Origin: Streptomyces aurantiacus
GTDB taxonomy: Bacteria > Actinomycetota > Actinomycetes > Streptomycetales > Streptomycetaceae
Direction: 5' to 3'
DNA length: 64,000 nt
NCBI RefSeq assembly: GCF_027107535.1
Contig: NZ_CP114283.1
Location: forward strand, 8,990,001-9,054,000
Positions 7,620 through 30,340 of the stretch are shown in pieces. The notes under the pieces are model-generated. The model saw only the letters and a list, made by a program, of their open reading frames with translations, did not search any database and was not told where the DNA came from. The position numbers were made by a program, and so were the translations under genes. Positions within the stretch are counted from its first letter, which is position 1, and every line of letters begins with the position of its first letter.

Positions 7620-7636
7620 TCTGACGGGCCGTCATG
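7620..7636. promoter_or_regulatory. Operator site 1 of the TCTGACGG palindrome family
   Basis: TCTGACGGGCCGTCATG: perfect left half, and six of eight positions in the right half. It lies in the divergent gap between the acyl-CoA dehydrogenase (7573, minus) and the thiolase (7714, plus), nearer the former. Confidence 0.7.
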
Positions 7637-7692
7637 TTAGAGCGGCGATCAGCAGATGCACAGGGTCGCGACACCTCCCGCGTCGCGCGGTA

Positions 7693-7709
7693 TCTGATGT
7701 ACCGTCAGA
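7693..7709. promoter_or_regulatory. Operator site 2, abutting the thiolase start
   Basis: TCTGATGTACCGTCAGA: perfect right half, with two mismatches plus the spacer on the left. It ends four bases before the thiolase ATG. A TACCGT -10-like hexamer lies inside the site (7700-7705), so a bound repressor would cover the promoter. Confidence 0.75.
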
Positions 7710-7713
7710 TTCC

Positions 7714-8901
7714 ATGACTCCGCCCCGGATCGTGACGTCAGGGAACCGCAGGGTCGCCGTCGTCGGCGTGGCCCTCTCCGACTGCGGGCGCCTGGACGAG
7801 GCGACGCCGTACGCGCTGCACGCCCAGGCCGCCCGCAGGGCCCTGGCCGACTCGGGCCTGGACCGGTCGGTGATCGACGGCTTCGCGTCGGCGGGCCTCG
7901 GCACGCTGGCGCCGGTCGAGGTGGCGGAGTACCTGGGCCTGCGCCCGACCTGGGTCGACTCCACGTCCGTCGGCGGATCGACGTGGGAGGTCATGGCGGC
8001 GCACGCGGCGGACGCCATCGCCGCCGGGCACGCGAACGCGGTCCTGCTGGTGTATGGGTCCACCGCCCGCGCGGACATCCGGGCGGGCCGCCGTACGGGC
8101 AACCTTTCGTTCGGGGCGCGCGGGCCGTTGCAGTTCGAGGTCCCGTACGGACACACGCTCGTCGCCAAGTACGCGATGGCCGCGCGCCGGCACATGCACG
8201 AATACGGCACGACGCCGGAGCAGTTGGCGGCGGTGGCGGTGCAGGCGCGGGACAACGCCGCGCTGAACCCGGACGCGATGTTCCGCGACCCGATCACGGT
8301 CGACGACGTGCTGTCGGGGCCGGTGATCGCCGACCCGTTCACCAAGCTGCACTGCTGCATACGGTCGGACGGCGGGGCGGCGGTGCTGCTGGTGGCGGAG
8401 GAGTACGTCCAGGACTGCCGTGTCCCTCCCGTCTGGGTCCTCGGAACCGGCGAGCACGTCTCTCACACGACGATGTCCGAGTGGGCGGACTTCACGGTCT
8501 CGCCCGCCGCGGTGAGCGGGCGGCTCGCGTTCGAGCGGGCGGGGGTCGGGCCGCAGGACGTGGACCTGGCAGAGATCTACGACGCCTTCACGTACATGAC
8601 GCTGGTGACGCTGGAGGATCTCGGCTTCTGCGGAAAGGGCGAGGGCGGGGCGTTCGTGGAGAAGGGACGGCTGCGGGTGGCGGGCGGGGAGCTGCCGGTC
8701 AACACGGACGGGGGCGGGCTGTCGGCCCAGCATCCGGGGATGCGAGGGCTGTTCCTGCTGGTCGAGGCCGTGCGGCAGTTGCGGGGGGAGGCCGGTGACC
8801 GACAGGTCCGCAGACCGGACGGCCACCTGCCCGAACTGGCGGTGGCGTCGGGGACGGGGGGCTGGTTCTGCTCGTCGGGGACGGTGGTGCTGGGGCGGTA
8901 G
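7714..8901 (+). CDS. Thiolase-fold protein lacking the usual nucleophilic cysteine (lipid-transfer/aldolase type)
   Basis: 395 residues from ATG 7714; the frame extends upstream but the operator at 7693-7709 and leaderless geometry favour this start. The fold is that of SCP-2 thiolases: VAVVGVALSDCGR at the N terminus, then alternating domains with the C-terminal VNTDGGGLSAQHPGMRGL segment. Where thiolases carry the acylated Cys, this protein reads VDSTSVGGST (81-90), so ordinary thiolytic chemistry is unlikely. Ltp2-like proteins of steroid side-chain degradation lack the Cys too; they act as retro-aldolases with a DUF35 partner. A DUF35 gene with the same operator family lies at 11937-12404. 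Confidence 0.85.
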   Translation: MTPPRIVTSGNRRVAVVGVALSDCGRLDEATPYALHAQAARRALADSGLDRSVIDGFASAGLGTLAPVEVAEYLGLRPTWVDSTSVGGSTWEVMAAHAADAIAAGHANAVLLVYGSTARADIRAGRRTGNLSFGARGPLQFEVPYGHTLVAKYAMAARRHMHEYGTTPEQLAAVAVQARDNAALNPDAMFRDPITVDDVLSGPVIADPFTKLHCCIRSDGGAAVLLVAEEYVQDCRVPPVWVLGTGEHVSHTTMSEWADFTVSPAAVSGRLAFERAGVGPQDVDLAEIYDAFTYMTLVTLEDLGFCGKGEGGAFVEKGRLRVAGGELPVNTDGGGLSAQHPGMRGLFLLVEAVRQLRGEAGDRQVRRPDGHLPELAVASGTGGWFCSSGTVVLGR

Positions 8902-8973
8902 GGGCCGATTCTCGACTGCGGGTGGTTCTGGGTCGCTCGCACCCACGAACCGGCCGAAGCCCCCACCCCCTCA

Positions 8974-8994
8974 GGGGCGCGGGGAACTGCGCGA
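8974..8994 (+). repeat. Dispersed intergenic repeat, copy 1
   Basis: 21-base core beginning GGGGCGCGGGGAACTGCG, preceded by CCCC so that CCCC-TCA-GGGG can pair. It follows the thiolase stop by about 70 bases. Confidence 0.8.
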
Positions 8995-11936: not shown

Positions 11937-12404
11937 CTAGCCGGAGGCCGCGGCCGCCGGCCGGAACACGGGGACCGCGACCGTTTCCCCCGCCCTCTCC
12001 CGGCCTTCCATCCCCTCGACGCCCTCCACGTCCACGCCCTCCACGCGGAACGTCACCTCCAGCGCCATCCCCGCCCGCAGTGCCTCCTCCGCGCAGTCCA
12101 CCACCTCGGTCATCATGCGCGGCCCCTCTTCGAGATCGACGACGGCGGCCACGTACGGCGTGCGGGCCCCGAAGGGCGGCAGGTCGTTCCGGTGGACGAC
12201 GGACCAGGTGTAGAGCGTGGCGCGCCCGCCGGCCCGCTCCCAGGTCACGGCCTCGCTCCAGCAGTGCGGGCAGAACTCACGGGGGTAGTGGTGGGCGCGC
12301 CCGCACGCGCCGCACCGGCGCAGCAGCAGGTTCCCCTCGGCGGCCGCGTCCCAGTACGGCCGGGTGAGGGCGTCGGCCTCCGGCAGGTCGAAACGGGCCG
12401 CCAT
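11937..12404 (-). CDS. DUF35 Zn-ribbon/OB-fold acyl-CoA-associated protein
   Basis: 155 residues. Four cysteines C31-x2-C34 and C45-x2-C48 (RRCGACGRAHHYPREFCPHCW) form a zinc ribbon, and an OB-fold follows (TLYTWSVVHRNDLPPF, TPYVAAVVDLEEGPRMMTEVVDC). Such proteins partner thiolase-fold enzymes, as ChsH2-DUF35 does with Ltp2, and hold the acyl-CoA. The ATG overlaps the TGA of the upstream DoxX gene by one base. The likely partner is the Cys-less thiolase at 7714, which carries an operator of the same family although it lies 3 kb away. A V/E/G repeat (EGVDVEGVEGMEG) marks the C-terminal region. Confidence 0.88.
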   Translation of the reverse strand: MAARFDLPEADALTRPYWDAAAEGNLLLRRCGACGRAHHYPREFCPHCWSEAVTWERAGGRATLYTWSVVHRNDLPPFGARTPYVAAVVDLEEGPRMMTEVVDCAEEALRAGMALEVTFRVEGVDVEGVEGMEGRERAGETVAVPVFRPAAAASG

Positions 12405-12853
12405 CAGAAGATTCCCAGGGCGTTGTCCAGCGACCACGTCTGCCAGGACATCGCGAACAGGGCCACCAGGGAGATCAGCGCCATCATCGCGTTCTGCCCC
12501 TGCTCGGCCCAGTCGTGGATCATCAGCACGAGGTAGAGGAGGTTGAGCAGCAGTCCTCCGACCAGGGCGATCGGCGTCAGGAACCCCATGACGAGGCCGA
12601 GGCCCAGGGCGAGTTCGGCGTACACGACGACGTACGCCATCGTGCGCGGCCGGGGCGCGACCACCACGTCGAAGCCGCTGCGCACCGCGTTCCACCGGTG
12701 CTTCGCCGCGACGTCCGTCGCCCAGGCGATGCCGGTCCCCCGCTCGAACCAGCCCTTCTTGTCCTTGTGCCGCCAGCTCTCCAGCCACCACAGCCCCAGG
12801 CCGATACGGAGCACGGCGACCCATTCCGCACCGGTGAGCCAGATCGTGTCCAT
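12404..12853 (-). CDS. DoxX family membrane protein
   Basis: 149 residues with four transmembrane segments (about 8-25, 70-92, 94-112, 120-142) and a polar loop after the first, as in DoxX/quinol-oxidase-subunit-like proteins. Some DoxX proteins work with oxidoreductases in the membrane; a role here is unknown. It begins with ATG 12853 behind a CAGGGGGC Shine-Dalgarno and 24 bases downstream of operator site 3. It is the first gene of a two-gene unit with the DUF35 gene (overlap TGATG), so it is expressed with acyl-CoA enzymes. Confidence 0.85.
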   Translation of the reverse strand: MDTIWLTGAEWVAVLRIGLGLWWLESWRHKDKKGWFERGTGIAWATDVAAKHRWNAVRSGFDVVVAPRPRTMAYVVVYAELALGLGLVMGFLTPIALVGGLLLNLLYLVLMIHDWAEQGQNAMMALISLVALFAMSWQTWSLDNALGIF

Positions 12854-12876
12854 GAAGCCCCCTGCCGTCGACGGCA

Positions 12877-12893
12877 TCTGACGGTACGTCAGT
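12877..12893. promoter_or_regulatory. Operator site 3, upstream of doxX/DUF35
   Basis: TCTGACGGTACGTCAGT: left half perfect, right half six of eight. The distance to the DoxX ATG is 23 bases. Confidence 0.75.
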
Positions 12894-13126
12894 TCAGCCG
12901 ATGCGGCGGCACTCGCGCAAGACGCACGGCGAAAGTCCCCGGACGACCGCCCGGCCCGCCGCAGCGCCCGCGCCCACCGCCTCGCCGCCCGCTCCACCTC
13001 CCGCACACAGACCGGGGAACCTACGACACCGGCCCCACACGGGCCTCCTACAGCCGTGATCAATTCGCAACCGATTCCGGGCTTGACCGAGACCCATCAA
13101 GTGATGACTTGAATACGCTCTGGCAC

Positions 13127-14344
13127 ATGGCCGACTCTCCCGACCCGACATCCCAGGCGTCCGCGCCGCAACCCGCGCCGCAGCAGGACCGACCCGTGTA
13201 CGTCATCGGGGGCGGCCCGGGCGGCCTCGCGGCGGCGCACGCGCTGCGCGCACAGGGAGTCCGGGCCGTCGTGCTCGAAAAGTCCGACCACGTCGGAGCG
13301 TCCTGGCGGCGGCACTACGACCGGCTGCGGCTGCACACCACCCGCCGTCTCTCCGGGCTGCCCGGCCTCGCGATGCCGCGCTCGTTCGGCCGCTGGGTGT
13401 CGCGCGACAACGTGGTGCGCTACCTGGAGAAGTACGCCGAGCACCACGAGCTGGAGATCGTCACGGGTGTCGAGGTCTCCCGCGTGGAGCCCACCGCCGA
13501 CGGCACCGGCTGGCTGCTGCGCGCCACGGGCGGGCGTGAGCTGACCGGCAGCGCCGTGGTCGTCGCCACCGGCTACAACCACACGCCGCACGTGCCCGAC
13601 TGGCCGGGCCGCGACGCGTACACGGGCGAGCTCCTGCACGCCGGCGAGTACCGCAACCCGGCCCCCTACGCCGGCCGGGACGTCCTCGTGGTCGGCGTGG
13701 GCAACACCGGCGCCGAGATCGCCGTCGACCTCGTCGAGGGCGGCGCCTCGCGCGTACGCCTGTCGGTGCGGACCGCGCCGCACATCGTGCGCCGGTCGAC
13801 GGCCGGCTGGGCGGCCCAGTACACCGGAGTGCTCTGCCGGCGGCTGCCGGTCGCCCTGGTGGACCGGATGGCCGGGCCGCTGGCCAGGATCAGTGTTCCG
13901 GACCTCTCCTCGAAGGGGCTGCCGCGGCCCGACACCGGGCTGTACTCGCGGGTCAACGAGGGGTCCATCCCCGTACAGGACGTCGGCCTCATCGACGCCG
14001 TCCGCAAGGGCCGGGTCGAGATCGTGGCCGCGGTCGAGGCCTTCGAGGACGGCAAGGTCGTCCTCGCGAACGGCGACCGCGTCGGTCCGGACGCCGTGAT
14101 CGCCGCGACCGGCTACCGGCGCGCCCTGGAGGATGTCGTCGGCCATCTCGACGTACTCGACGCGCGTGGACGCCCGGTCGTCCACGGCGCCCGTGCGCCG
14201 AAGAACGCGCCAGGCCTCTACTTCACCGGTTTCACCAACCCGATCAGCGGGATGCTCCGCGAGCTGGCCCTCGACGCCGAGAAGATCGCGAAGTCGATCG
14301 CGCGGGACGCGGAGCGCAGGCACCCGTCCCGCATCACCCGCTGA
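13127..14344 (+). CDS. Flavin-containing monooxygenase-like NAD(P)/FAD protein
   Basis: 405 residues from ATG 13127; the longer open frame upstream runs over the DoxX gene and is not coding. Two Rossmann motifs are present: GGGPGGLAAAHAL (FAD, about 26-38) and VVGVGNTGAEIAVDL (NADPH, about 186-200), with VVATGYNHTPHVPDWPG between them, the ATG motif of FMO/CzcO-like enzymes. The family oxygenates N, S or ketone carbons using NADPH and O2, or acts in metal resistance. The complete FMO fingerprint FxGxxxHxxxY is seen only as LLHAGEYRNPAPYAGRD. No operator-family site precedes it except the one shared with DoxX. Confidence 0.85.
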   Translation: MADSPDPTSQASAPQPAPQQDRPVYVIGGGPGGLAAAHALRAQGVRAVVLEKSDHVGASWRRHYDRLRLHTTRRLSGLPGLAMPRSFGRWVSRDNVVRYLEKYAEHHELEIVTGVEVSRVEPTADGTGWLLRATGGRELTGSAVVVATGYNHTPHVPDWPGRDAYTGELLHAGEYRNPAPYAGRDVLVVGVGNTGAEIAVDLVEGGASRVRLSVRTAPHIVRRSTAGWAAQYTGVLCRRLPVALVDRMAGPLARISVPDLSSKGLPRPDTGLYSRVNEGSIPVQDVGLIDAVRKGRVEIVAAVEAFEDGKVVLANGDRVGPDAVIAATGYRRALEDVVGHLDVLDARGRPVVHGARAPKNAPGLYFTGFTNPISGMLRELALDAEKIAKSIARDAERRHPSRITR

Positions 14345-14738
14345 CGCGTCCGGCGATCCAGCCGGGACCGGGCGGGGGCGGGGGTGCCGGTCCAGCCCCG
14401 GGGGCTCGTCCGCCCGGCCCCTGGGGCACGGCGTCCCGGCGCTGAGGTCCTGCCACGCCCGTGACCTGGGGATGCGGCCTTGGGGTGCGGCCTTGCGGCG
14501 TGGTCTTGTTGCGTTGTCTTCGGAGGTGCCTCGACCTGTCCGGGCCGGGGTCCGTCGGCGTCATGGACCTGCCCGCCCCTGGGGTCCGGCGCCGTGGCCC
14601 CGCGGCTCCTGGCCGGTCCCGCGTCCGGCAGCGACCGCCGGTTCACACCCCGGAGCGCCGGGCCAGGCACGTTCCTGAGCGGGTCCCGGAGGGTACGAAC
14701 CCTGTGGCGGCCACAAGTTCTTTGCATGCAGACCCGTT
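14345..14738. other. Gene-free region before the ADP-forming synthetase
   Basis: About 400 bases with imperfect GGGGTGCGGCCTTG-type direct repeats near 14460-14510. No coding frame has plausible composition on both counts of length and start. The end of the gap carries operators 4 and 5. Confidence 0.5.
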
Positions 14739-14755
14739 CCTGACGTGGCGTCAGT
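14739..14755. promoter_or_regulatory. Operator site 4, distal site of a tandem pair
   Basis: CCTGACGTGGCGTCAGT: six of eight matches in each half. Its centre is 24 bases from the centre of site 5, close to two helical turns. Confidence 0.65.
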
Positions 14756-14762
14756 TCAGTAA

Positions 14763-14779
14763 TCTGACACTGCGTCAGT
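14763..14779. promoter_or_regulatory. Operator site 5, proximal site of a tandem pair
   Basis: TCTGACACTGCGTCAGT lies 31 bases upstream of the synthetase ATG at 14811, with the AGGAG ribosome site in between. Confidence 0.75.
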
Positions 14780-14810
14780 TATTGGCAGCCACTCAGGAGC
14801 GGGCGGACCG

Positions 14811-17036
14811 ATGCTTGGATCAACCCACGGCACCCTCACCACCGACTCCCGCCGGGCCAGGGTCATCGCCTGCGGCGAGCAACCGGCCCCTGCCGTGCAC
14901 GGCAGGCCCGCCGCCACCGACGACCTGGACGTCAGCGGCCGGCCGCTGTACGCCGGCGTACCCGATCTGGACCGCTTCTTCCGCCCCGAGTCGGTGGCCG
15001 TGGTCGGCGCCTCGGACACCGAGGGGCGCCCGAACACCGGCATCACCCGCCAACTGCTCGCCTGGGCCGAACGGGTCGGCGCCCGGCTGCACCCGGTGCA
15101 TCCGACGCGCGAGTCCGTCTTCGGGATCCCGTGCGTCGCCGCTGTCACGGACCTGCCCGAACAGGTCGACCTGGCCGTGCTCCTGGTCGCCGACCCCCTG
15201 CCCGTGATCGAGCAACTCGGCGAGACGAAGGTGCGGTTCGCGGTCGCCTTCGCCTCCGGATTCGCCGAGACCGGAGCGGAGGGCGCCGCCGCGCAGGCCC
15301 GCCTTGCCGCCGCCGTGCAGCGCTCCGGGCTGCGGCTGCTCGGCCCGAACACCAACCTCAACGCCTTCGAGAGGTTCCGCGAGGACCTGGACGGGCCGGC
15401 GATCGCGCTGATCACCCAGTCCGGGCACCAGGGGCGTCCCGTCTTCACGATGCAGGAGCTCGGCGTACGGCTCTCGCACTGGGCGCCCACCGGCAACGAG
15501 GCCGACCTGGAGAGCGCCGACTTCATCTCGTACTTCGCCGAGCAGCCCGAGGTGGGCGCCATCGCCTGCTACGTCGAGGGCCTCAAGGACGGCCGTTCCT
15601 TCCTCCTGGCCGCCGACCGGGCCGCCCGGCGCGGTGTCCCCGTCGTCGCGGTCAAGGTCGGCCGCACCGAGACGGGCGCCCGGACGGCCGCCTCCCACAC
15701 CGGCAAACTGACCGGCGCCGACGCGGTCGTGGACGCCGCGATGCGCCAGTACGGCGTCGTGCGAGTCGACGGGCTCGACGAACTCCAGGACACCGCCGCC
15801 CTGTTGGCGCGCGCCCGCCCGCCGTCCTCCGACGGGGTCGTCGTCTACTCCATCTCCGGCGGTACGGGCGCGCACTTCTCGGACCTGGCGACGGAGGCCG
15901 GGCTGACACTGCCCCGGCTCTCGGACACCAAGCAGGCCGAACTGCACCAGTGGATACCCGAGTACCTGGACGTCTCCAACCCGATCGACAACGGCGGCCA
16001 TCCGGTCGGCGACTGGCGCGGACGCAGGATCATCGACGCGATCCTCGCCGATCCGGCCGTCGGAGTGCTGGTCTGCCCGATCACCGGCCCCTTCCCGCCC
16101 ATGAGCGACAAGCTCGCGCAGGACCTGGTGGACGCGGCGGAGCAGACGGACAAACTGGTGTGCGTGGTGTGGGGCTCACCCGTGGGTACGGAGGCCGCGT
16201 ACCGGGAGACGCTGCTCGGGTCGTCGCGGGTGGCCACCTTCCGTACGTTCGCGAACTGCATCACCGCGGTCCGTGCCCACCTGGACCACGCCCGGTTCGT
16301 CGCCTCGTACCGCTCGCCCTTCGACGAGGCGCCGCGCAGTCCGTCCCCCTCCTACCGCAAGGCCCAGGCGCTGATGCGGCCGGGCAGCAGGCTCAGTGAG
16401 CACGCGGCGAAGCAGTTGCTGCGCGCGTACGGGATCCGTGTGCCGCGGGAGCAGTTGGTGACCAGCGCGGCCGCGGCGGTGCGGGCGGCCGGGCTCGTGG
16501 GGTATCCCGTGGTGATGAAGGCGTCCGGTGCGCGGCTCGCCCACAAGACCGAGCTGGGTCTGGTGAAGATCGGCCTGACCTCGGCGAGTCAGGTCAGGGA
16601 CGCCTACCGGGAGTTGACCGACATCGCCCGCTACGAGGACGTGTCGCTGGACGGGGTGCTGGTGTGCCAGATGGTCGAGCCCGGTGTCGAGATGGTCGTC
16701 GGTGTGACGCACGACGAGCTGTTCGGTCCCACGGTGACGGTCGGGCTGGGCGGAGTGCTCGTGGAGGTCCTGCGGGACACCGCCGTGCGGGTGCCGCCGT
16801 TCGGTGAGGACCAGGCCCGGACGATGCTCGACGAGCTTCGGGGGCGGGCGCTGCTGGACGGCGTCCGCGGGCGGCCTCCGGCCGATCTGGACGCACTGGT
16901 CGAGGTGGTGCTGCGGGTGCAGCGGATGGCGCTCGAACTGGACGGTGAGCTGTCCGAGCTGGACATCAACCCGTTGATGGTGCTGCCCCGGGGGCAGGGG
17001 GCTGTGGCGTTGGACGCGCTGGCGGTGTGCCGCTGA
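14811..17036 (+). CDS. Fused-subunit acyl-CoA synthetase (ADP-forming type)
   Basis: 741 residues. Residues about 50-145 are a CoA-binding Rossmann domain (FFRPESVAVVGASDTEGRPN), then two succinyl-CoA-ligase-like domains carrying SGHQG (about 205-210; this His is the phosphorylation site in the family), and from about 515 an ATP-grasp domain (VVMKASGARLAHKTELGLVKIGL, DGVLVCQMVEPGVEMVVGV, ending ELDINPLMV). The enzyme interconverts acyl-CoA and acid with ATP/ADP and phosphate; some bacterial homologues are protein acetyltransferases but carry a GNAT domain, absent here. It is preceded by two operators and AGGAG, and is followed by an enoyl-CoA hydratase gene. Confidence 0.9.
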   Translation: MLGSTHGTLTTDSRRARVIACGEQPAPAVHGRPAATDDLDVSGRPLYAGVPDLDRFFRPESVAVVGASDTEGRPNTGITRQLLAWAERVGARLHPVHPTRESVFGIPCVAAVTDLPEQVDLAVLLVADPLPVIEQLGETKVRFAVAFASGFAETGAEGAAAQARLAAAVQRSGLRLLGPNTNLNAFERFREDLDGPAIALITQSGHQGRPVFTMQELGVRLSHWAPTGNEADLESADFISYFAEQPEVGAIACYVEGLKDGRSFLLAADRAARRGVPVVAVKVGRTETGARTAASHTGKLTGADAVVDAAMRQYGVVRVDGLDELQDTAALLARARPPSSDGVVVYSISGGTGAHFSDLATEAGLTLPRLSDTKQAELHQWIPEYLDVSNPIDNGGHPVGDWRGRRIIDAILADPAVGVLVCPITGPFPPMSDKLAQDLVDAAEQTDKLVCVVWGSPVGTEAAYRETLLGSSRVATFRTFANCITAVRAHLDHARFVASYRSPFDEAPRSPSPSYRKAQALMRPGSRLSEHAAKQLLRAYGIRVPREQLVTSAAAAVRAAGLVGYPVVMKASGARLAHKTELGLVKIGLTSASQVRDAYRELTDIARYEDVSLDGVLVCQMVEPGVEMVVGVTHDELFGPTVTVGLGGVLVEVLRDTAVRVPPFGEDQARTMLDELRGRALLDGVRGRPPADLDALVEVVLRVQRMALELDGELSELDINPLMVLPRGQGAVALDALAVCR

Positions 17037-17086: not shown

Positions 17087-17365
17087 TGAAGGACGCGCCT
17101 GCCGGTGGGCGTCGGGTCGGGGGCGCGTCGGGACATCCGATCGCAGCTGTGTCGTCCCGGGCCGATCGGTTGCCCAGGGGAGGTCGTGCTGCGATCGGAC
17201 GCCCCGCCCCGCCCCCTCACGCCGCACGGCGACTGCCGCAGGACGATGACGACCTCCTGGAAAGGGGCGCCCCCGTCGGGCGCACCTGCCCCCGTACCTA
17301 CCGGCCGCAAGGCGGCCCCTTCGACCGTGAACGCCCCCTCGCCTCCGGGCGGAACGGAGTCCCCC

Positions 17366-18145
17366 GTGCTGCTTCACACCCTCGACAACCAGGTCTCCTG
17401 GATCACCCTGAACCGGCCCGAAGCCATGAACGCCGTCACCCCCGACCAACGGGACCGGCTCATCGGCCTGTTCGAGGCCGCGTCGGCCGACCCCGGCACC
17501 CGCGCGGTCGTCCTCACCGCCACGGGCCGCGGCTTCTGCGCGGGCGCGGACCTGCGCGGCGGCCCGCCCCCGGGCGACCGCGTCCCCGGCGACGTGGCCC
17601 GCGTCATCCGCCACGGCGCCCAACGCCTCATCGCCGCGGTCCTCGACTGCGAGAAGCCGGTGATCGCCGCCGTGAACGGCACGGCGGCCGGCCTCGGCGC
17701 CCACCTCGCCTATGCCTGCGACCTCGTCATCGCCGCGGAGTCGGCCAGGTTCATCGAGGTGTTCGCGCGCCGGGGGCTGGTCCCCGACGGCGGTGGCGCC
17801 TACCTCCTGGCCCGGCTCGTCGGCCCGCAACGGGCGAAGGAGCTGATGTTCTTCGGCGACGCCCTGAGCGCCGCGGACGCGCACCGGCTCGGGCTCGTCA
17901 ACCGGGTCGTACCGGACGGCGAGTTGGAGAAGACGGTCCGCGCCTGGGCCGAGCGCCTGGCCGCCGGCCCCACCCGCTCCCTCGCCCTCACGAAGCAGCT
18001 GGTGAACGCCTCCCTGGACTCCGACCGCGCCACCGCGTTCTCCGCCGAGGCCACCGCCCAGGAGATCAACATGACGACGGCGGACGCCGGTGAAGGGGTG
18101 ACGGCGTTCGTGGAGCGGCGCGGAGCGGAGTTCAAGGGCCGTTGA
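17366..18145 (+). CDS. Enoyl-CoA hydratase/isomerase
   Basis: 259 residues from GTG 17366 (ACGGAG upstream); the frame is open further up, with an ATG at 17246, but the family begins at LLHTLDNQVSWITLNRPEAMNAV. Oxyanion-hole motif ATGRGFCAGADLRG (about 52-65) and PVIAAVNGTAAGLGAHLAYACDLVIAA (about 98-124) identify the crotonase. The later FIEVFARRGLVPDGGG places an Asp where enoyl-CoA isomerases and hydratases have one of the catalytic acids. It follows the operator-controlled synthetase in the same direction and probably works on its product. Confidence 0.9.
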   Translation: MLLHTLDNQVSWITLNRPEAMNAVTPDQRDRLIGLFEAASADPGTRAVVLTATGRGFCAGADLRGGPPPGDRVPGDVARVIRHGAQRLIAAVLDCEKPVIAAVNGTAAGLGAHLAYACDLVIAAESARFIEVFARRGLVPDGGGAYLLARLVGPQRAKELMFFGDALSAADAHRLGLVNRVVPDGELEKTVRAWAERLAAGPTRSLALTKQLVNASLDSDRATAFSAEATAQEINMTTADAGEGVTAFVERRGAEFKGR

Positions 18146-18168
18146 ACCGGTCGCCGGACCCCTTCCAA

Positions 18169-18185
18169 TCTGACACCCCGTCAGC
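18169..18185. promoter_or_regulatory. Operator site 6, abutting the flavin reductase start
   Basis: TCTGACACCCCGTCAGC: seven of eight positions in the right half. It ends four bases before ATG 18190, and there is no Shine-Dalgarno between, as for site 2. Confidence 0.75.
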
Positions 18186-18189
18186 TTCA

Positions 18190-21266: not shown

Positions 21267-22316
21267 TCAGAAGGTGAGAACGGCCCTGGCGACCCGTCCG
21301 GCCCGCGCGTCGGCGGCCGCCTTCTCGAAGTCCTCCACGGGATACGTGCCGGTCACCAACTCGTCCAGCAGCAACCGGCCTTCCCGGTACATCTCCGCGT
21401 ACAGCGCGATGTCCCGCTGCGGCCGCGAGGACCCGTACCGGCAGCCGAGGATCGACTTGTCCAGGTACATCGACGAGACGAGGAAGGACGCCTCGGCCGT
21501 GGCGGGCGGCACGCCGAGGAGGACCGCCTGTCCGTGGCGGTCCAGCAGGTCGACGGCCTGGCGGACGAGTTCGACCCGGCCGACGCATTCGAAGGCGTGG
21601 TCCGCGCCGGTGGGAAGGACGTCCCTCACTCCTTCCGTCGAGGTCAGGAAGTGCGTCGCGCCGAACCGCCGGGCCACCTCCTCCTTCGCCGGGTTCGAGT
21701 CCACCGCCACGACGGTGAGGGCCCCGGCGATCCGCGCGCCCTGGATGACGTTGAGCCCGATGCCGCCCGTGCCGATGACGACCACGCTGTCCCCGCGGTC
21801 CACCCGCGCCCGGTTCAGCACGGCCCCGACCCCCGTCAGCACCCCGCACCCGATCAGGGCCGCCGACGCCATCGGGATGTCCTGCGGGATCCGCACCGCC
21901 TGCACGGCCTTCACCAACGTCCGTTCCGCGAAGGCGGAGTTGGACGCGAACTGGTACAGCGGCTGCCCGGCCCGTACGAACGGCCGCTGCGGCATCCCGA
22001 TCGCCTTGCGGCACATGGTGGGCCGCCCCCGGTCGCACTCCGCGCACGTACCGCAGTTGGCGAGCGTGGACAGGGAGACGTGGTCGCCGGGCCGGACGTG
22101 GGTGACGCCCGCGCCGACCGCCTCCACGACTCCCGCGCCCTCGTGGCCGAGCACCACGGGTACGGGGAAGGGGATGGTCCCGTCCACCACGGAGAGGTCG
22201 CTGTGGCACAGCCCCGCCGCCGAGACCGCGACCAGCACCTCCCCCGGCCCCGGGTCCCGTACCTCCAGGTCGTCCACCACCTGGGTCTGCCTGCCGTCGA
22301 AGATCACGCCCCGCAT
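21267..22316 (-). CDS. Zinc-dependent alcohol dehydrogenase (MDR superfamily)
   Basis: 349 residues. Catalytic-zinc motif AGLCHSDLSV with GHEGAGVVEAVGAGV, structural-zinc cysteines CGTCAECDRGRPTMC (about 88-102), and an NAD-binding GTGGIGLNVIQGA (about 178-190). It oxidises or reduces an alcohol/aldehyde with NAD(P). It is the last gene of the minus-strand group SDR (24509), acyl-CoA dehydrogenase (23489), ADH; the gap to the dehydrogenase stop is 24 bases. Probably part of the operator-7 regulon. Confidence 0.92.
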   Translation of the reverse strand: MRGVIFDGRQTQVVDDLEVRDPGPGEVLVAVSAAGLCHSDLSVVDGTIPFPVPVVLGHEGAGVVEAVGAGVTHVRPGDHVSLSTLANCGTCAECDRGRPTMCRKAIGMPQRPFVRAGQPLYQFASNSAFAERTLVKAVQAVRIPQDIPMASAALIGCGVLTGVGAVLNRARVDRGDSVVVIGTGGIGLNVIQGARIAGALTVVAVDSNPAKEEVARRFGATHFLTSTEGVRDVLPTGADHAFECVGRVELVRQAVDLLDRHGQAVLLGVPPATAEASFLVSSMYLDKSILGCRYGSSRPQRDIALYAEMYREGRLLLDELVTGTYPVEDFEKAAADARAGRVARAVLTF

Positions 22317-22340: not shown

Positions 22341-23489
22341 TCAGCCTTTCGGTTCCCTGGGAAGGCCGAGCACGCGCTCGGCGATGATCGTGCGCTGGAT
22401 CTCGTCCGAGCCGCCGTAGACGGTGTCGGCACGGCTGAAGAGGAACAGGTGCTGGAGCGGGTCCAGTTCGTACGGCGCCGCGGCCGTCCAGTCCGCCGGT
22501 CCCACCGCCGCCCCCGCGCCCCGCACCCGCACGGCCAGTTCGCCGAGCCGCTGGTGCCACCGGCCCCACAGCAGCTTGGCCACACTGGGGGCGCCCCGGT
22601 CCGCCGAACTCCCCAGTGTCCGCAGGGCGTTCCACCGCATGGTGCGCAGTTCGGCCCACTGGCGCACGAGCAGGTCACGGACGACCGGGTCGTCCGCCGC
22701 GCCGGTGGCGACGGCCGCTTCCAGCACCTGACCCAACTCCTGGGCGAAGCCGATCTGCTGGGCGAGCGTGGAGACGCCCCGCTCGAAGCCGAGCAGGCTC
22801 ATGGCGACCTGCCAGCCGTTCCCCTCTCCGCCGACGACGTGTTCCACGCGTGCGTGGGCCCCGTCGAAGAAGACCTCGTTGAACTCGCTGGTGCTGGTCA
22901 TCTGCCGGATCGGGCGGACGTCGATCCGTCCCGGCTGGTCCATCGGCACGAGCAGGAAGCTCAGCCCGTGATGCCGTCGGGAGCCGGCCTCCGTCCGCGC
23001 CAGCACGAAGCACCAGTCGGCCTCGTGGGCGAGGGAGGTCCAGATCTTCTGCCCGGTGATGCGGTACATGCCCGCCTCGTCGTCCCGCACGGCCGCCGTA
23101 CGGATCCCCGCGAGGTCCGAGCCGGCGCCGGGTTCGCTGTAGCCCTGGCACCAGAGTTCGTCACCTGCGGCGATCGGCGGCAGGAAGCGGGACTTCTGCT
23201 CCTCGCTGCCGTGCGCCAGGAGGGTGGGCGCGAGGAGGTTCTCACCGATGTGCCCGGTCCGGGCGGGGGCCCGGGAGCGGGCGTACTCCTCGGCCCAGGC
23301 GACCTGTTGTCCGAGGCCGGCCCGCCGGTTCCCGTACCCCTCCTCGGACCAGCCGATCCCGATCCACCCGGCCGCACCGAGCGTACGTTCCCACGCCCGG
23401 CGGTCCAGGCCGTCCGAGACGTTCTCCGCGAGCCACGACCGCACCTCGCCCCGAAACGCCACGTCCTCCGCGGTGACCCCGAACTCCAT
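22341..23489 (-). CDS. Acyl-CoA dehydrogenase
   Basis: 382 residues from ATG 23489 with GGAGGGG just upstream. Domains: N-terminal helices, the middle strand domain with ELWCQGYSEPGAGSDLAGIRTAAVRDDEAGMYRITGQKIWTSLAHEADWCFVLART, and a C-terminal helical domain ending YGGSDEIQRTIIAERVLGLPREPKG. This is the larger (FadE-like) type that pairs with short dehydrogenases in actinobacteria. The base at the C-terminal substrate helix was not assigned. It lies 102 bases after the SDR stop, with one dispersed repeat in the gap. Confidence 0.92.
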   Translation of the reverse strand: MEFGVTAEDVAFRGEVRSWLAENVSDGLDRRAWERTLGAAGWIGIGWSEEGYGNRRAGLGQQVAWAEEYARSRAPARTGHIGENLLAPTLLAHGSEEQKSRFLPPIAAGDELWCQGYSEPGAGSDLAGIRTAAVRDDEAGMYRITGQKIWTSLAHEADWCFVLARTEAGSRRHHGLSFLLVPMDQPGRIDVRPIRQMTSTSEFNEVFFDGAHARVEHVVGGEGNGWQVAMSLLGFERGVSTLAQQIGFAQELGQVLEAAVATGAADDPVVRDLLVRQWAELRTMRWNALRTLGSSADRGAPSVAKLLWGRWHQRLGELAVRVRGAGAAVGPADWTAAAPYELDPLQHLFLFSRADTVYGGSDEIQRTIIAERVLGLPREPKG

Positions 23490-23519
23490 GTCCCCTCCGC
23501 CCACAACAGCGCCCCCACA

Positions 23520-23591: not shown

Positions 23592-24509
23592 TCACCCGCC
23601 CTCCGCTGCGCGCGCCGCTCGCTTGGCGGCCCGCGCCATCTCCTCCACCTGCGCGAGCAGCGGCATGGGATCCACCCCGACCGTCCCCGGCAGGAAGTCC
23701 GCGATCCGCTCCGGCGTCCAGCCGCCCTCGGCGTATCCGGCACGGAGTTCCCTCGGCTGTGCCCACACCGCGATCTTCGGTCCGGCGATCGTGTAGACCT
23801 GCCCGGTGATCCCCTCCTCGCGGGCCCGTTCGGACAGCAGGTAGACGACGAGCGCGGCCACGTCCTCGGGCTCGCCGATCTCCTTCAGCTCCATGGGCAC
23901 GTTCGCCGACATGCGCGTACGGGCGACCGGCGCGACCGCGTTCGCGGTGACCCCGTACTTGTGGAGCCCGAGCGCGGCGCTGCGGACGAGTGAGATGATC
24001 CCGCCCTTCGCCGCGCTGTAGTTGGCCTGCGAGACGGACCCCTGGTGGTTGCCGCTGGTGAACCCGATCAGCGTGCCCGACCCCTGCCTGCGCATCAGCG
24101 CCGAGGCGGCGCGGAACACGGTGAACGTGCCCTTCAGGTGCGTGGCGACCACGGGGTCCCACTCCTCCTCGGACATGTTGAACAGCATCCGCTCGCGCAG
24201 GATCCCGGCGACGCAGACGACTCCGTCGAGCCGCCCGTACGCCTCCACGGCCGTGTCGACGATCCGCTGTCCGCCCGCCATGGTGGAGATGTCGTCGCCC
24301 ACCGCGATCGCGTCGCCGCCGGCCGCCTCGATCTCCTTGACCACGGCGTCGGCGACCGAACTCGTCGGCTCCGCACCCTCGATCGACACCCCGTAGTCGT
24401 TGACGACGACCTTCGCGCCCTCGGCCGCGGCCATCAGCGCCACCGCGCGTCCGATGCCCCGGCCCGCCCCGGTCACGGCGACGACCTTGCCTGCCAAGAA
24501 GTTCCCCAC
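23592..24509 (-). CDS. SDR family dehydrogenase (HSD17B4-like)
   Basis: 305 residues from GTG 24509. Coenzyme motif VTGAGRGIGRAV (13-24), NDYGV after strand 2 and the catalytic S-(x)n-Y-x3-K as GFTSGNHQGSVSQANYSAAKGG. The family includes 3-hydroxyacyl-CoA and 17-beta-hydroxysteroid dehydrogenases; the long C-terminal tail (EELKEIGEPEDVAALVVYLL onward) suits the acyl-CoA type. It has a GGAAGGGG ribosome site, starts 22 bases from operator 7, and heads the unit SDR-ACAD-ADH. Confidence 0.9.
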   Translation of the reverse strand: MGNFLAGKVVAVTGAGRGIGRAVALMAAAEGAKVVVNDYGVSIEGAEPTSSVADAVVKEIEAAGGDAIAVGDDISTMAGGQRIVDTAVEAYGRLDGVVCVAGILRERMLFNMSEEEWDPVVATHLKGTFTVFRAASALMRRQGSGTLIGFTSGNHQGSVSQANYSAAKGGIISLVRSAALGLHKYGVTANAVAPVARTRMSANVPMELKEIGEPEDVAALVVYLLSERAREEGITGQVYTIAGPKIAVWAQPRELRAGYAEGGWTPERIADFLPGTVGVDPMPLLAQVEEMARAAKRAARAAEGG

Positions 24510-24531: not shown

Positions 24532-24548
24532 TCTGACGGTCCGTTAGA
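24532..24548. promoter_or_regulatory. Operator site 7, SDR/cyclase divergent promoter
   Basis: TCTGACGGTCCGTTAGA: the best-preserved copy, with a single mismatch from the perfect palindrome. It is 22 bases from the SDR start. Confidence 0.8.
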
Positions 24549-24559: not shown

Positions 24560-24576
24560 TTCTACGACCCGTCAGA
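24560..24576. promoter_or_regulatory. Operator site 8, degenerate second copy
   Basis: The right half CCGTCAGA (24569-24576) is perfect; the left half is poor. It is 28 bases from site 7 (centre to centre) and 29 bases upstream of the cyclase ATG. Confidence 0.55.
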
Positions 24577-24605: not shown

Positions 24606-25532
24606 ATGTCACTGCCGGACGAGTTCCACGAGATCGCCAAGCGCGTGAACAACTGGGGGCGTTGGGGCGCCGAAGACGAGATCGGCACCCTGAACCTGAT
24701 CACCGACGAGGTGGTCCGCGAGGCCGCCGCGACCGTCCGCTCGGGCCGCCGTGTGCCGCTCGCGCTCCCGCTGCGGCAGGACGGCGTGCAGACCGGGATG
24801 ATCCCTGGCCGGGTCAATCCGCTGCACACGATGGTGCAGATCAACCAGGAGCTGTTCGGCCCCGGCACGGTCGCGTGCAGCGACGACGCCGTGACGATGG
24901 GCCTTCAGGCGGCCACCCACTGGGACGCGATCACCCACGTCTCGCACTCGGGGAAGATCTACAACGGCCGCCCGGCCGCCACCATCACGGCCCACGAGGG
25001 TGCCCGGTTCAGCGGCATCGACAAGCCCCGGCACATCGTCTCGCGCGGCGTCCTGCTGGACGTGGCCCGCGCGCTCGGCAAGGAGCGCCTCGACGGCGGG
25101 CACGCGGTGACCCCGGAGGACCTGGAGGCGGCCGAGGAGCTGAGCGGGACGAAGGTCCGCCCGGGCGACATCGTCCTCGTGCGCACCGGCCAGATGCAGC
25201 TCTGTCTCGCGGGGGACAACCACGGGTACGCCTTCCCCTCCCCCGGCCTGTCCGTCCGCACCCCGGAGTGGTTCCACGCCCGCGATGTCGCGGCGGTCGC
25301 GAACGACACCCTCACCTTTGAGATATTTCCGCCCGAAATAGAGGACCTTTGGCTGCCTGTCCACGCGCTCGACCTGGTCGAGATGGGCATGCTCCAGGGC
25401 CAGAACTGGAATCTCGAAGAGTTGTCCACAGCCTGTGGAGAAGTCGGACGCCATGCGTTCCTGCTGTCGGCGATGCCCGAACCGTTCGTCGGCGGCACGG
25501 GAACCCCCGTGGCACCGGTGGCGATCCTCTGA
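24606..25532 (+). CDS. Cyclase/kynurenine formamidase-like metal-dependent hydrolase
   Basis: 308 residues. The motif ATHWDAITHVSHSGKIYNG (about 98-116) is the metal-binding histidine cluster of the cyclase superfamily, and HDVG-like segments with DRPG come later (RPGDIVLVRTGQMQ, TPEWFHARDVAAVANDTLTFEIFPP). The family hydrolyses amides or opens rings, and members occur in ring-cleavage pathways. GGGGAGGA precedes the ATG. It is divergent from the SDR gene and shares its operators, so it belongs to the same presumed catabolic set. Confidence 0.85.
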   Translation: MSLPDEFHEIAKRVNNWGRWGAEDEIGTLNLITDEVVREAAATVRSGRRVPLALPLRQDGVQTGMIPGRVNPLHTMVQINQELFGPGTVACSDDAVTMGLQAATHWDAITHVSHSGKIYNGRPAATITAHEGARFSGIDKPRHIVSRGVLLDVARALGKERLDGGHAVTPEDLEAAEELSGTKVRPGDIVLVRTGQMQLCLAGDNHGYAFPSPGLSVRTPEWFHARDVAAVANDTLTFEIFPPEIEDLWLPVHALDLVEMGMLQGQNWNLEELSTACGEVGRHAFLLSAMPEPFVGGTGTPVAPVAIL

Positions 25533-26936: not shown

Positions 26937-27857
26937 TCATCTACCGGGCTCCGCCGCGGCAGCCGCCAGCTCCTCCGCGAGCGCTTCCTCGGCCGCTGCG
27001 GCCCCCTGCCCCCGACGGGCCCGCGACCAGGCCCGTTTGAGGTGAAGGTGCACGTCGGACTCCCAGGTGAATCCCATGCCGCCGTGCACCTGGAGGCAGT
27101 CGCGGGCGCCGCGCTCGGCGGCCTCGTCCGCCAGCAGCCCGGCCGCCGCGATGTCGAGCGGATCGCCCGTCACGGACGCCCCGTAGACCGCCGCGCGCGT
27201 CAACTCCACGCGCACCAGCATCTCCGAGCACAGGTGCTTCACCGCCTGGAAGGCCCCGATCGGCTGCCCGAACTGCTCACGGGTCCGGGCGTGTTGCACG
27301 GCCAGCTCGCAGGTGCGCGCGGCCGAGCCGAGTTGCTCGGCGGCGGTCAGCAGTGCGGCCACCGGATCGGGGGGCGCGGCCCGGGGCACCCGGTGCAGTG
27401 GCGTCAGCGGGTCGGCCGAGCGCAGGGCGACCGCGCCCGTCACGTCTCCGCGTACGACGTCCGCCGTGTCCAGCCATTCGACGAGTGCGCCGTCGACGGC
27501 CGCGACGACGCATTCCCCGGTGGCCGCTCCCGGTACTTCGCCGGCCGCGAGGTGGGTGGCCACCAGCGGTCCGGGCAGCAGCACCCGGCCCGCCTCCTCG
27601 AAGGCCAGCACCGCCTCGGGGAGTCCCAGCCCGACCCCTCCCCGCGCCTCGGGCAGCCGCAGCGCGAAGAAGCCCGCCTCGCCCAACTCGCGCCACAGCG
27701 CGCGGTCGAGGACGCAGGAGCCCTCCCCGCTCTCGGCACCCGCGTCCCGGGGAGGGTCCACGGCGGCCCGGAGCCGCTCCCGTCCGAACCGCCGCTCCAG
27801 CAGCTCGCGCACGCCCGCCCGCAAGGCCCGCTGGTCGTCCGTGAGTTGGAAGTCCAC
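26937..27857 (-). CDS. Acyl-CoA dehydrogenase family protein, short form
   Basis: 306 residues from GTG 27857, four bases after the stop of the preceding dehydrogenase gene. It has the N-terminal helices and then jumps to the C-terminal domain (TREQFGQPIGAFQAVKHLCSEMLVRVELTRAAV, RDCLQVHGGMGFTWESDVHLHLKRA). The family is about 380 residues long, so the middle beta-domain is reduced. Short, probably catalytically impaired subunits of this kind combine with a full-length chain in alpha2beta2 dehydrogenases of steroid-type pathways; the gene at 27862 would supply the latter. Confidence 0.85.
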   Translation of the reverse strand: MDFQLTDDQRALRAGVRELLERRFGRERLRAAVDPPRDAGAESGEGSCVLDRALWRELGEAGFFALRLPEARGGVGLGLPEAVLAFEEAGRVLLPGPLVATHLAAGEVPGAATGECVVAAVDGALVEWLDTADVVRGDVTGAVALRSADPLTPLHRVPRAAPPDPVAALLTAAEQLGSAARTCELAVQHARTREQFGQPIGAFQAVKHLCSEMLVRVELTRAAVYGASVTGDPLDIAAAGLLADEAAERGARDCLQVHGGMGFTWESDVHLHLKRAWSRARRGQGAAAAEEALAEELAAAAAEPGR

Positions 27858-27861: not shown

Positions 27862-29016
27862 TCACCGTCCCTTCGGGAGGCCCAGAATCCGTTCGGCCAC
27901 GATGTTCCGCTGGATCTGCGAGGTGCCGGCCGCGATGGTGTACGAGAGCGACGACAGCCGGTCCGTCGTCCACTCCCTGCCGAGATCGAGCGCCTCGGGT
28001 CCGAGCACCTCCGCCGCCGCGTCGTACAGCTCCTGACGCGCCTGCGAGTACCGCAGCTTGAAGACCGAGCCGCCGACGCCCGGCACGCCGCCGGTCCGCT
28101 GCGACTCGCTCACGTTCCACTGGGTGAGCCGCCACAGCGCCCGGAACTCGGCGTTGAGCCTGCCGAGCCGGCGGCGCAGCGGTGTGTCGTCCCAGCGGCC
28201 GTTCTTCCGTGCCTCACGGGCGAGTTCGTCCAGGACGCGCCGGCAGGCCACCACCTCGCCGACGAAGGCGGTGCCGCGCTCGAACGACAGGGTCACCATG
28301 GTCACGCGCCAGCCGTCGTTCTCCTGGCCGACCCGGTTGGCGACGGGCACCCGCACGTCGTCGAGGAAGACCTCCGCGAACTCGGTGGAGCCCGCGAGGG
28401 TCCGCAGCGGGCGGACCGTGATGCCCGGGGCGTCCATCGGCATCGCGAGCCACGAGATCCCACGGTGCTTGGGCGCCTCGGGATCGGTGCGCACCAACAG
28501 CTCGCACCAGTCGGCGACTTCGGCGTGCGAGGTCCAGATCTTGGAGCCGTTCACCACGTAGTCGTCGCCGTCCCGGCGGGCGCGCGTGCGCAGCGCCGCG
28601 AGGTCGGAGCCGGCGTCCGGCTCGCTGAACCCCTGGCACCACACCTCCTGGCCGCGCAGCACGGGCGGCAGCCAGCGCGCCCGTTGTTCGGCGCTTCCCT
28701 CGGCCGCGATGGTGGGCCCGGCGTGCAGCAGCCCGACGAAGTTGGCCCCGACGTAGGGCGCACCCGCCTTCTCCGTCTCCTCCAGGAAGATCAGGTGCTG
28801 CGTCGGCGTGGCACCCCGCCCCCCGGCGTCGGCGGGCCAGTGGAGTCCCGCGTACCCGGCGTCGTACAGCGTCCGCTGCCATCCGAGGTCGTAGGCGCGT
28901 CTGCCGGGCCAGTCGTCGGGTGAGGGCTTCGGCGGCAGGCCGGGGAGTGTCTTCGCCAGCCACTGCCGCAGCCGTGCGCGGAACTCCTCCTCCTCGGCCG
29001 TGTACGAGAGGTCCAT
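27862..29016 (-). CDS. Acyl-CoA dehydrogenase, full length
   Basis: 384 residues; ATG 29016 overlaps the TAA of the amidohydrolase by one base (TAATG). Middle-domain motif EVWCQGFSEPDAGSDLAALRTRARRDGDDYVVNGSKIWTSHAEVADWCELLVRT and C-terminal YTIAAGTSQIQRNIVAERILGLPKGR are classic. It should form an enzyme with the short partner encoded directly downstream. The three-gene unit amidohydrolase, dehydrogenase, dehydrogenase is preceded by operator 9. Confidence 0.92.
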   Translation of the reverse strand: MDLSYTAEEEEFRARLRQWLAKTLPGLPPKPSPDDWPGRRAYDLGWQRTLYDAGYAGLHWPADAGGRGATPTQHLIFLEETEKAGAPYVGANFVGLLHAGPTIAAEGSAEQRARWLPPVLRGQEVWCQGFSEPDAGSDLAALRTRARRDGDDYVVNGSKIWTSHAEVADWCELLVRTDPEAPKHRGISWLAMPMDAPGITVRPLRTLAGSTEFAEVFLDDVRVPVANRVGQENDGWRVTMVTLSFERGTAFVGEVVACRRVLDELAREARKNGRWDDTPLRRRLGRLNAEFRALWRLTQWNVSESQRTGGVPGVGGSVFKLRYSQARQELYDAAAEVLGPEALDLGREWTTDRLSSLSYTIAAGTSQIQRNIVAERILGLPKGR

Positions 29017-30221
29017 TACCGGGCGCGGTCGAGGTCGAGGTCGAGGCCGAGCATGCGGATGGCGTTGCCGCGCATCAGCTTGTAGACCGTCTCGTCGTCG
29101 AGGCCCTTCACGTGGTCGAGGGCGACCTCCTTGGTGTGCGGGAAGGTCGAGTCGACGTGCGGGTAGTCGGTCTCGAAGGTGGCGTTGTCCCGGCCCACGA
29201 CGTCCAGTGAGGCGATGCCGTGCTTGTCGCGGAAGAAGCAGCAGAAGATCTGCCGGTAGTAGTAGGTGGACGGCGGCTCGGGGACGAGGTCCTTGACGCC
29301 GCCCCAGGCCCGGTGCTCCTCCCACACGTCGTCGGCTCGCTCCAGGGCGTACGGGATCCAGCCCATCTGCCCTTCGGAGTACGCCAGTTTGAGCCGGGGG
29401 AACTTGACCAGGACGCCGGAGAAGAGGAAGTCCATCATCGAGGCCATGGCGTTGTTGAAGCTCAGGGACGCCTGGACGGCGGGCGGCGCGTCGGGGGACG
29501 CGGCGGGCATCTGTGAGGACGACCCGATGTGCATGTTCACGACCGTGCCGGTCTCCTGGCAGACGGCGAAGAACGGATCCCAGTAGCCGGAGTGGATGGA
29601 CGGCAGCCCGAGGTGGGTGGGGATCTCCGAGAAGGTGACGGCCCGCACGCCCCGGGCGGCGTTGTGCCTGATCTCGGCGACCGCGAGGTCGATGTCCCAG
29701 AGCGGGATGATGCACAGCGGGATGAGCCGGCCGCCGCTGTCGCCGCACCATTCCTCGACCATCCAGTCGTTGTAGGCGCGCACGCAGGCGAGGGCGACCT
29801 CTTTGTCGTGCGCCTCGGCGAAGGTCTGTCCGCAGAACCGCGGGAAGGTCGGGAAGCAGAGCGAGCCCTCGACGTGGTTCGCGTCCATGTCCTTCAGCCG
29901 CTCGGCCGGGTCCCAGCATCCTGGCCGCATCTCCTCGCGGGTGATGCCCTCCAGGGTCATCTCGTCCCGGTCGAAGCCGACGGCGGCGATGTTGCGCTTG
30001 TACGGGAACTTCAGGTCCTCGTAGATCCACCAGTCGGTCGGCGGGCCGTCCGGGTCCATCGTGATCCGGTACTTGCCGGCCACGTAGGCCAGCTCGCCGA
30101 TGCCGGCCGTCAGCGGCTTGGGGCCACGGTCCCGGTACTTCTTCGGCAGCCAGGTCTCGAAGAGGTGCGCGGGCTCGATCACGTGGTCGTCGACGCTGAT
30201 GATCCGAGGCAGTTCGGTCAT
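29016..30221 (-). CDS. Amidohydrolase family (COG2159) metal-dependent hydrolase
   Basis: 401 residues. The N-terminal IISVDDHVIEP carries the H-x-H-like metal ligand region, VVNMHIGSSS and ESDYPHVDSTFPH (read here as FETDYPHVDSTFPH) provide the other His/Asp ligands of the TIM-barrel. The family includes decarboxylases (ACMSD, gamma-resorcylate) and hydrolases; in actinobacterial lipid gene clusters it usually sits with acyl-CoA dehydrogenases, as here. The ribosome site is GGAGAGGG; the start is 24 bases downstream of operator 9. Confidence 0.9.
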   Translation of the reverse strand: MTELPRIISVDDHVIEPAHLFETWLPKKYRDRGPKPLTAGIGELAYVAGKYRITMDPDGPPTDWWIYEDLKFPYKRNIAAVGFDRDEMTLEGITREEMRPGCWDPAERLKDMDANHVEGSLCFPTFPRFCGQTFAEAHDKEVALACVRAYNDWMVEEWCGDSGGRLIPLCIIPLWDIDLAVAEIRHNAARGVRAVTFSEIPTHLGLPSIHSGYWDPFFAVCQETGTVVNMHIGSSSQMPAASPDAPPAVQASLSFNNAMASMMDFLFSGVLVKFPRLKLAYSEGQMGWIPYALERADDVWEEHRAWGGVKDLVPEPPSTYYYRQIFCCFFRDKHGIASLDVVGRDNATFETDYPHVDSTFPHTKEVALDHVKGLDDETVYKLMRGNAIRMLGLDLDLDRAR

Positions 30222-30245
30222 GAGTCCAGCCCTCTCCGCGGCAAA

Positions 30246-30262
30246 TCTGATGACCCGTCAGA
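30246..30262. promoter_or_regulatory. Operator site 9, amidohydrolase operon
   Basis: TCTGATGACCCGTCAGA: right half perfect, five of eight on the left. Confidence 0.75.
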
Positions 30263-30323
30263 AGGCAGGCTAGCTCCGCACCCCTGGACCGACAAGGCGC
30301 CGAGGCCTACGCTCTCCAGCCAA

Positions 30324-30340
30324 TCTGACTACCCGTCAGC
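30324..30340. promoter_or_regulatory. Operator site 10, acyl-CoA synthetase
   Basis: TCTGACTACCCGTCAGC, seven of eight in the right half. It ends two bases before the first in-frame ATG of the synthetase (30342) and 17 before the SD-preceded ATG (30357). Confidence 0.75.

Follow-up and report, generated by a model that had tools for sequence, protein, structure and literature searches.

The 64,000-nucleotide stretch of Streptomyces aurantiacus DNA analyzed here (contig NZ_CP114283.1, positions 8,990,001 to 9,054,000; hereafter the window) carries a real 17-bp operator palindrome ahead of acyl-CoA catabolic genes, with nine strong sites and one degenerate one, and these sites belong to a genome-wide, steroid-type regulon that overlaps a KstR locus. 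Judging from sequence comparisons, the palindrome is quite probably the operator of the TetR_C_38 (PF19352) protein encoded at 4901-5548, its predicted binder and repressor. The computed evidence comprises the sites and their conservation, their placement at gene starts within the fetched stretches, the co-occurrence of sites and PF19352 genes, and operator-like sites at the regulator's own start in several lineages.

Operator sites within and beyond the window

A related 17-bp palindrome is present at all ten coordinates listed in a preliminary description of the window, its consensus being nearer to TCTGACGNNNCGTCAGA than to the pattern proposed there, TCTGACGG-N-CCGTCAGA. With up to three mismatches to the latter, eight matches were found in the window (seven of the ten listed sites and 31526), while chance gives 0.59 and a maximum of 4 in 100 shuffles. 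The remaining three sites (14739, 14763 and 24560) have four mismatches. The claim that ten sites fit the consensus thus stands as regards the presence of a palindrome, but only seven fit within three mismatches and 24560 is weak. Leave-one-out scoring with a symmetric matrix made from the ten sites gave 15.1-23.1 bits for nine of them and 7.0 bits for 24560. Over 164 kb including the window, a score of 16 bits was exceeded at 15 positions (the nine training sites and six new ones), compared with a mean of 0.8 and a maximum of 2 in Markov sequence. The sites of the window, all given on the forward strand, are:

7620..7636, +: operator, between an acyl-CoA dehydrogenase gene (-) and a thiolase gene (+)
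7693..7709, +: operator, ahead of the thiolase gene
12877..12893, +: operator, between a DUF35 gene (-) and a flavin monooxygenase gene (+)
14739..14755, +: operator, first of a pair at 24 bp spacing
14763..14779, +: operator, second of this pair
18169..18185, +: operator, ahead of a flavin reductase gene
24532..24548, +: operator, between a short-chain dehydrogenase (SDR) gene (-) and a cyclase gene (+)
24560..24576, +: doubtful, degenerate half-site (leave-one-out 7.0 bits), its register lost in relatives
30246..30262, +: operator, ahead of an amidohydrolase gene (-)
30324..30340, +: operator, ahead of an acyl-CoA synthetase gene (+)

The match at 31526 (three mismatches), absent from the earlier list, lies within an acyl-CoA synthetase gene and is likely due to chance. 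Scanning 14600-14900 for promoters gave a single terminator-like match but nothing resembling a promoter.

Sites near the window extend over 75 kb. Six further ones lie to its left (contig coordinates 8945856, 8969208, 8970139, 8970183, 8975234 and 8988063) and adjoin genes for a short-chain dehydrogenase, a luciferase-type monooxygenase, an amidohydrolase, an acyl-CoA synthetase and a thiolase, as well as one SARP-type regulator. Elsewhere in the genome, strong sites are located between the genes for CYP125 (5dqn, E 5e-157) and FadA5 (4ubv, E 5e-151), between an acyl-CoA synthetase gene and a hydratase-DUF35-thiolase operon (genes named by eye), and ahead of luciferase-type monooxygenase genes, a pair of acyl-CoA dehydrogenase genes and a further acyl-CoA dehydrogenase gene. 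Site statistics and the genes behind the sites bear out the preliminary reading of an acyl-CoA catabolic regulon; its equation with the ten-site set was too narrow, as sites are found across the genome. Poor fits exist, some genome matches falling within or beside unrelated genes. At up to three mismatches, 279 forward matches were counted vs. 95 with the reversed pattern, so chance alone would account for about one third of such weak matches.

When no more than one mismatch was allowed, a scan of 150 Streptomyces genomes gave 1125 forward matches, compared with 17 for the reversed pattern. At least five such near-exact sites occur on the counted strand in 102 genomes and none or one in 29, while 10 genomes have none on either strand. 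For nine sites of the window (all except 24560), the site itself or a partner within its promoter is found again ahead of the orthologous genes in two other genomes (G012 and G090). The 7620/7693 pair is reduced to one site in G012, the spacing of the 14739/14763 pair is identical in G012, G090 and G069, and in three relatives 24560 is shifted or missing. In the fetched stretches, where gene-start preference was measured, sites above 18 bits were situated at predicted gene starts in 12 of 14 cases in G012, 12 of 12 in G090, 34 of 38 in family f14 (Frankiales) and 7 of 8 in family f16 (Frankia-type), compared with 21-28% of random positions. For the S. aurantiacus genome (G000) the figure is 10 of 15, because the simple open reading frame (ORF) caller set several starts too far upstream, and around KstR it is 5 of 7. 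In the genomes and stretches covered, the palindromes neither scatter without preference for gene starts, given this placement and the excess over the control in 150 genomes, nor are they missing ahead of the orthologous genes.

Sites above 18 bits were not concentrated at gene starts in family f13 (2 of 8) and in G043 (6 of 14). The f13 genomes contain 13 to 82 palindrome matches per genome and strand, some of them between convergent genes in the 87 kb fetched. Genome G043 has about 14 near-exact palindromes, scattered singly and without a catabolic cluster beside its PF19352 gene.

The TetR_C_38 protein as candidate regulator

The proposed regulator and the sequence over its start are:

4901..5548, +: TetR-family regulator, PF19352 (TetR_C_38; Pfam E 2.3e-74), proposed repressor
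4892..4908, +: weak operator-like sequence over the TetR start codon (9.0 bits)

The protein belongs to the TetR family, having a TetR helix-turn-helix (PF00440, E 4.6e-6) and an all-helical C-terminal domain. It is the sole PF19352 match in the genome and, among the matches listed (150 of 380 candidates scored), the only TetR_N match between the first and the last site of the cluster. Its predicted structure (predicted local distance difference test score, pLDDT, 91) is closest to EthR among the 50 fold matches listed (19% identity); the EthR profile match has an E value of 6e-10, and a monooxygenase gene has a site. The protein is 98% identical to counterparts from named Streptomyces. The recognition region TSPATFYQYF is nearly invariant in 13 aligned proteins. 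In one Actinomadura, sites lie between the PF19352 gene and the adjoining gene, which encodes the same type of acyl-CoA synthetase.

The preliminary description regarded the TetR gene at 4901 as a weak candidate. We consider it the leading one, because sites and PF19352 genes co-occur across families and operator-like sites lie at the gene's own start outside Streptomyces; the cross-family data also reversed our initial doubt, which arose from its persistence in site-poor Streptomyces. Co-occurrence was examined in 196 evenly drawn genomes of the class (177 outside Streptomyces), with a PF19352 match at E <= 3e-10 defining a carrier and nine weak-match genomes (E 7e-9 to 1e-3) not counted as carriers. 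Outside Streptomyces, all 11 genomes with at least five sites on a strand have a PF19352 match. Since the sites of family f13 (five genomes, PF19352 matches at E 1e-10 to 8e-23) do not lie at gene starts, this family was left out of the final count: all six remaining site-rich genomes are then carriers, with seven carriers having fewer sites and 159 genomes being neither site-rich nor carriers (Fisher 5e-8, or 3e-13 with f13 included). Counting all PF19352 matches at E <= 1e-3 gives a Fisher value of 2e-6, and a within-family (stratified) permutation gives p 9e-6, or 5e-5 if two weak f16 matches are taken as carriers. In both f14 and f16, carriers hold more sites than non-carriers.

At the regulator's own start, the best site reaches at least 12.7 bits in 13 of 18 non-Streptomyces loci (two of them f13), where its distance to the conserved portion of the protein varies; it scores 10.1 bits in three (all f13) and below zero in two. 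The summed own-start score, window included, is 238 vs. -53 +- 33 for 2000 column-permuted palindromic matrices, none of which reaches it. From 80 named loci returned, 15 were examined, at least three being genomes already counted: own-start sites score 12.7-18.2 bits in eleven Frankiales, Frankia-type and Actinomadura loci and 9.0 bits in four (three Streptomyces and one labelled Streptosporangium). In Streptomyces, the 4892..4908 stretch is kept, identical or with one change, in all 29 readable of 30 loci, and a fraction of 0.016 of permuted matrices reaches 9.0 bits there. The region ahead of the PF19352 start (window 4850-4910) is as a whole almost identical in 29 of the 30 Streptomyces loci fetched, the thirtieth being unreadable.

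Several observations weigh against this assignment. The PF19352 gene is carried by 149 of the 150 Streptomyces genomes, including all 10 without near-exact sites. Of 10 site-poor neighbourhoods fetched (20 kb each), seven have the gene but no site above 15 bits and, except for the flavin monooxygenase, none of the window's site-bearing genes; the other three retain diverged sites and some of these genes. Conversely, a draft genome in 1010 contigs (G136) has seven sites and no detected PF19352 copy. The own start in Streptomyces has the 9.0-bit site only, carriers G167 and G175 have no own-start site, and when 100 other gene starts from these site-rich loci were scored, 2-12% of them equalled the 16 site-bearing TetR starts. 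Moreover, carriers cluster in few families, so the independent cases are few.

The persistence of this core Streptomyces gene where sites and catabolic genes are gone would also be expected if the regulon were real and bound by another regulator, TetR_C_38 being just a conserved neighbour. AraC-type and SARP-type regulator genes are present in the stretch, and the SARP gene (8975438) diverges from the amidohydrolase gene behind site 8975234, about 190 bp off; since a SARP gene stands behind one site and TetR_N scoring covered part of the candidates, our confidence in the regulator is slightly lowered. Nevertheless, the SARP and AraC genes likewise persist in most site-poor genomes and were not seen (by eye) beside Frankiales sites, and the co-occurrence across families and the own-start sites in several lineages speak against a conserved neighbour. 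A by-eye look for a regulator directly behind strong sites in G000, G012, G090, G112, G093, G043 and G069 gave no consistent one, the exceptions being the SARP-type gene at 8975438 and isolated cases in G043. We regard a different binder as unlikely. Still less likely are several TetR paralogues with similar operators, the genome-wide sites then forming more than one regulon: a misfit site at 8585157 lies beside apparent succinate dehydrogenase genes (by eye), with another TetR gene 1.6 kb away, but many strong sites precede one functional class (partly judged by eye).

That KstR itself binds the operator with altered specificity is very improbable. Several operator sites do fall in the locus of the confirmed KstR orthologue (1.734 Mb, E 1e-39 to solved KstR), but canonical KstR sites are located in the same region, one of them in KstR's own promoter, where no TCTGAC site above 14 bits was found, and one promoter holds both types side by side. 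These canonical sites, together with the finding of KstR in 6 of the 10 Streptomyces genomes that lack near-exact operator sites, led us to reject KstR as the binder. A further argument, that G043 and G069 have sites but lack KstR, was dropped, as the G043 sites are single, 8 of 14 being off gene starts, and the KstR gene of G069 (160 contigs) may lie past a contig end. It is equally hard to credit that the palindromes are some other repeated element: the f13 and G043 palindromes, which are not concentrated at gene starts, would suit such an element, but the placement in f14, G090 and G012 far exceeds that of random positions.

Gene content of the window cluster and predicted mechanism

The gene identities given in the preliminary description were mostly right; however, no DoxX match was obtained among the 30 window ORFs searched against Pfam, and a flavin monooxygenase at about 12.9-14.3 kb had been overlooked. 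Besides the regulator, the cluster comprises:

5796..6293, -: F420H2-dependent quinone reductase family protein
6293..7573, -: acyl-CoA dehydrogenase (best NCBIfam match IpdE2, under its cut-off)
7597..8901, +: SCP2/Ltp-type thiolase ORF (true start about 7713 by inspection)
11937..12824, -: DUF35/ChsH2-type protein
12515..14344, +: flavin-containing monooxygenase ORF (true start probably past 12893)
14811..17036, +: ADP-forming acyl-CoA synthetase
17105..18145, +: enoyl-CoA hydratase
18142..18828, +: HsaB-like flavin reductase (under the HsaB cut-off)
21267..22316, -: zinc alcohol dehydrogenase
22341..23504, -: acyl-CoA dehydrogenase
23592..24509, -: short-chain dehydrogenase
24606..25532, +: cyclase-family (PF04199) protein
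26937..27857, -: acyl-CoA dehydrogenase
27862..30030, -: ORF with a second acyl-CoA dehydrogenase (residues 344-716 matched)
29016..30221, -: amidohydrolase (PF04909)
29529..31868, +: ORF with an AMP-binding acyl-CoA synthetase (start about 30357)

Between 659 and 33000 of the window, the catabolic genes alternate singly with a conserved backbone that is retained in site-poor genomes, as if they had been lost or gained piecemeal.

We infer that a TetR_C_38 dimer would occupy the 17-bp site, located at a gene start or a short way upstream of one, and thereby block transcription of the acyl-CoA, thiolase/DUF35, monooxygenase and related genes. Together these targets would make up a network for steroid- or polycyclic-type catabolism, with some of the promoters shared with KstR. 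EthR is a ligand-responsive repressor. The DNA may be freed when an intermediate of the pathway, a CoA thioester being the most likely kind, binds the C-terminal domain of TetR_C_38; KstR and KstR2 are described as responding to CoA thioesters in PMC9782250.

Relation to the KstR and KstR2 systems

The operator is unlike the palindromes of KstR, TnnAACnnGTTnnA, and KstR2, AnCAAGnnCTTGnT, as given in PMC1995591 and PMC3068626, which agrees with the distinction drawn in the preliminary description; none of the operator sites matches the KstR motif. The system resembles that of KstR (Rv3574) in combining a TetR repressor, a short palindrome at many starts and steroid-type acyl-CoA genes, and the two kinds of site are found together in one locus of this genome, but the palindrome and the protein differ, KstR having its orthologue in a separate gene. 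The 4901 protein matches KstR only at E 0.18-0.22. It is not KstR2 either, as the orthologue of the latter is encoded at 2125497 (4w97, E 5e-56); KstR2 was absent from the best 60 of 90 matches of the 4901 protein, and neither KstR nor KstR2 was among the 50 fold matches listed for its model, a result that excludes nothing. In S. aurantiacus, KstR2 (Rv3557c) has its own cluster, without a TCTGAC site above 12 bits. The likeness to EthR of Mycobacterium tuberculosis probably does not extend to the regulon, the main known EthR target being ethA. KstR3 of Mycolicibacterium neoaurum is likewise a TetR/AcrR-type repressor, acting on an aldolase/DUF35 sterol side-chain operon (PMC10398937, available text), but it controls a small operon, and the strings 'palindrom' and 'motif' do not occur in that text. 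In the open-access literature, where sequence strings are poorly indexed, no description of the operator or of PF19352 was found.

In two species (G000 and G069), a TCTGAC operator abuts a canonical KstR site ahead of an acyl-CoA dehydrogenase pair (C2:1752112, i.e., L043:17112, and L171:437). The KstR2 orthologue of S. aurantiacus is accompanied by an ipd-type cluster (C2:2122347-2130190; L302:12347-19998), although a 2016 survey reported 55 of 57 Streptomyces genomes to be without steroid degradation pathways (PMC4810484).

In the f14 Frankiales drafts, the PF19352 gene adjoins genes for a dehydrogenase, a hydratase and a CoA-transferase pair, which matches solved IpdA and IpdB (6co6, E 6e-99 and 1e-74) and is followed by an IpdC-like gene. 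The names IpdF, IpdC, FadA6 and EchA20 are presumptive, being drawn from gene position and general knowledge. Orthologues of the genes neighbouring KstR2 in S. aurantiacus carry or adjoin the new site: in G236 and G180, sites lie close ahead of the orthologues of the KstR2-cluster dehydrogenase (60%) and thiolase (73-76%), and the SDR orthologue (67-69%) is second in a site-bearing operon. Sites also precede orthologues of the window cluster, namely an SDR (63-64%), an aldehyde dehydrogenase (67-68%) and an acyl-CoA dehydrogenase (58-61%), and operator-gene pairs, including the SDR behind 24532, are common to Streptomyces and Frankiales. Clear KstR2 orthologues were found in G000, G012 and G090 (E <= 1e-115), f16 (about 1e-55) and G175, but none was detected in the five f14 drafts (best E 6e-17, no match in one) or in site-poor G063. 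The f14 stretches contain 40 sites above 18 bits and none for the reversed matrix, a density that is biased because the stretches were chosen for holding matches.

We give about even chances to a broader proposal: alongside KstR and KstR2, TetR_C_38 would be a third regulator of steroid-type catabolism in actinobacteria, widely conserved, sharing promoters with KstR in Streptomyces and, in a Frankiales family, having taken over the C/D-ring (ipd) genes that are under KstR2 elsewhere. If the assignment is true, it would provide a function for a core, uncharacterised gene of nearly all Streptomyces and delineate a regulon within a genus mostly placed outside the steroid degraders by the 2016 survey. 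Should the Frankiales case hold, control of one pathway would have passed from one regulator to another, giving a testable instance of regulatory rewiring.

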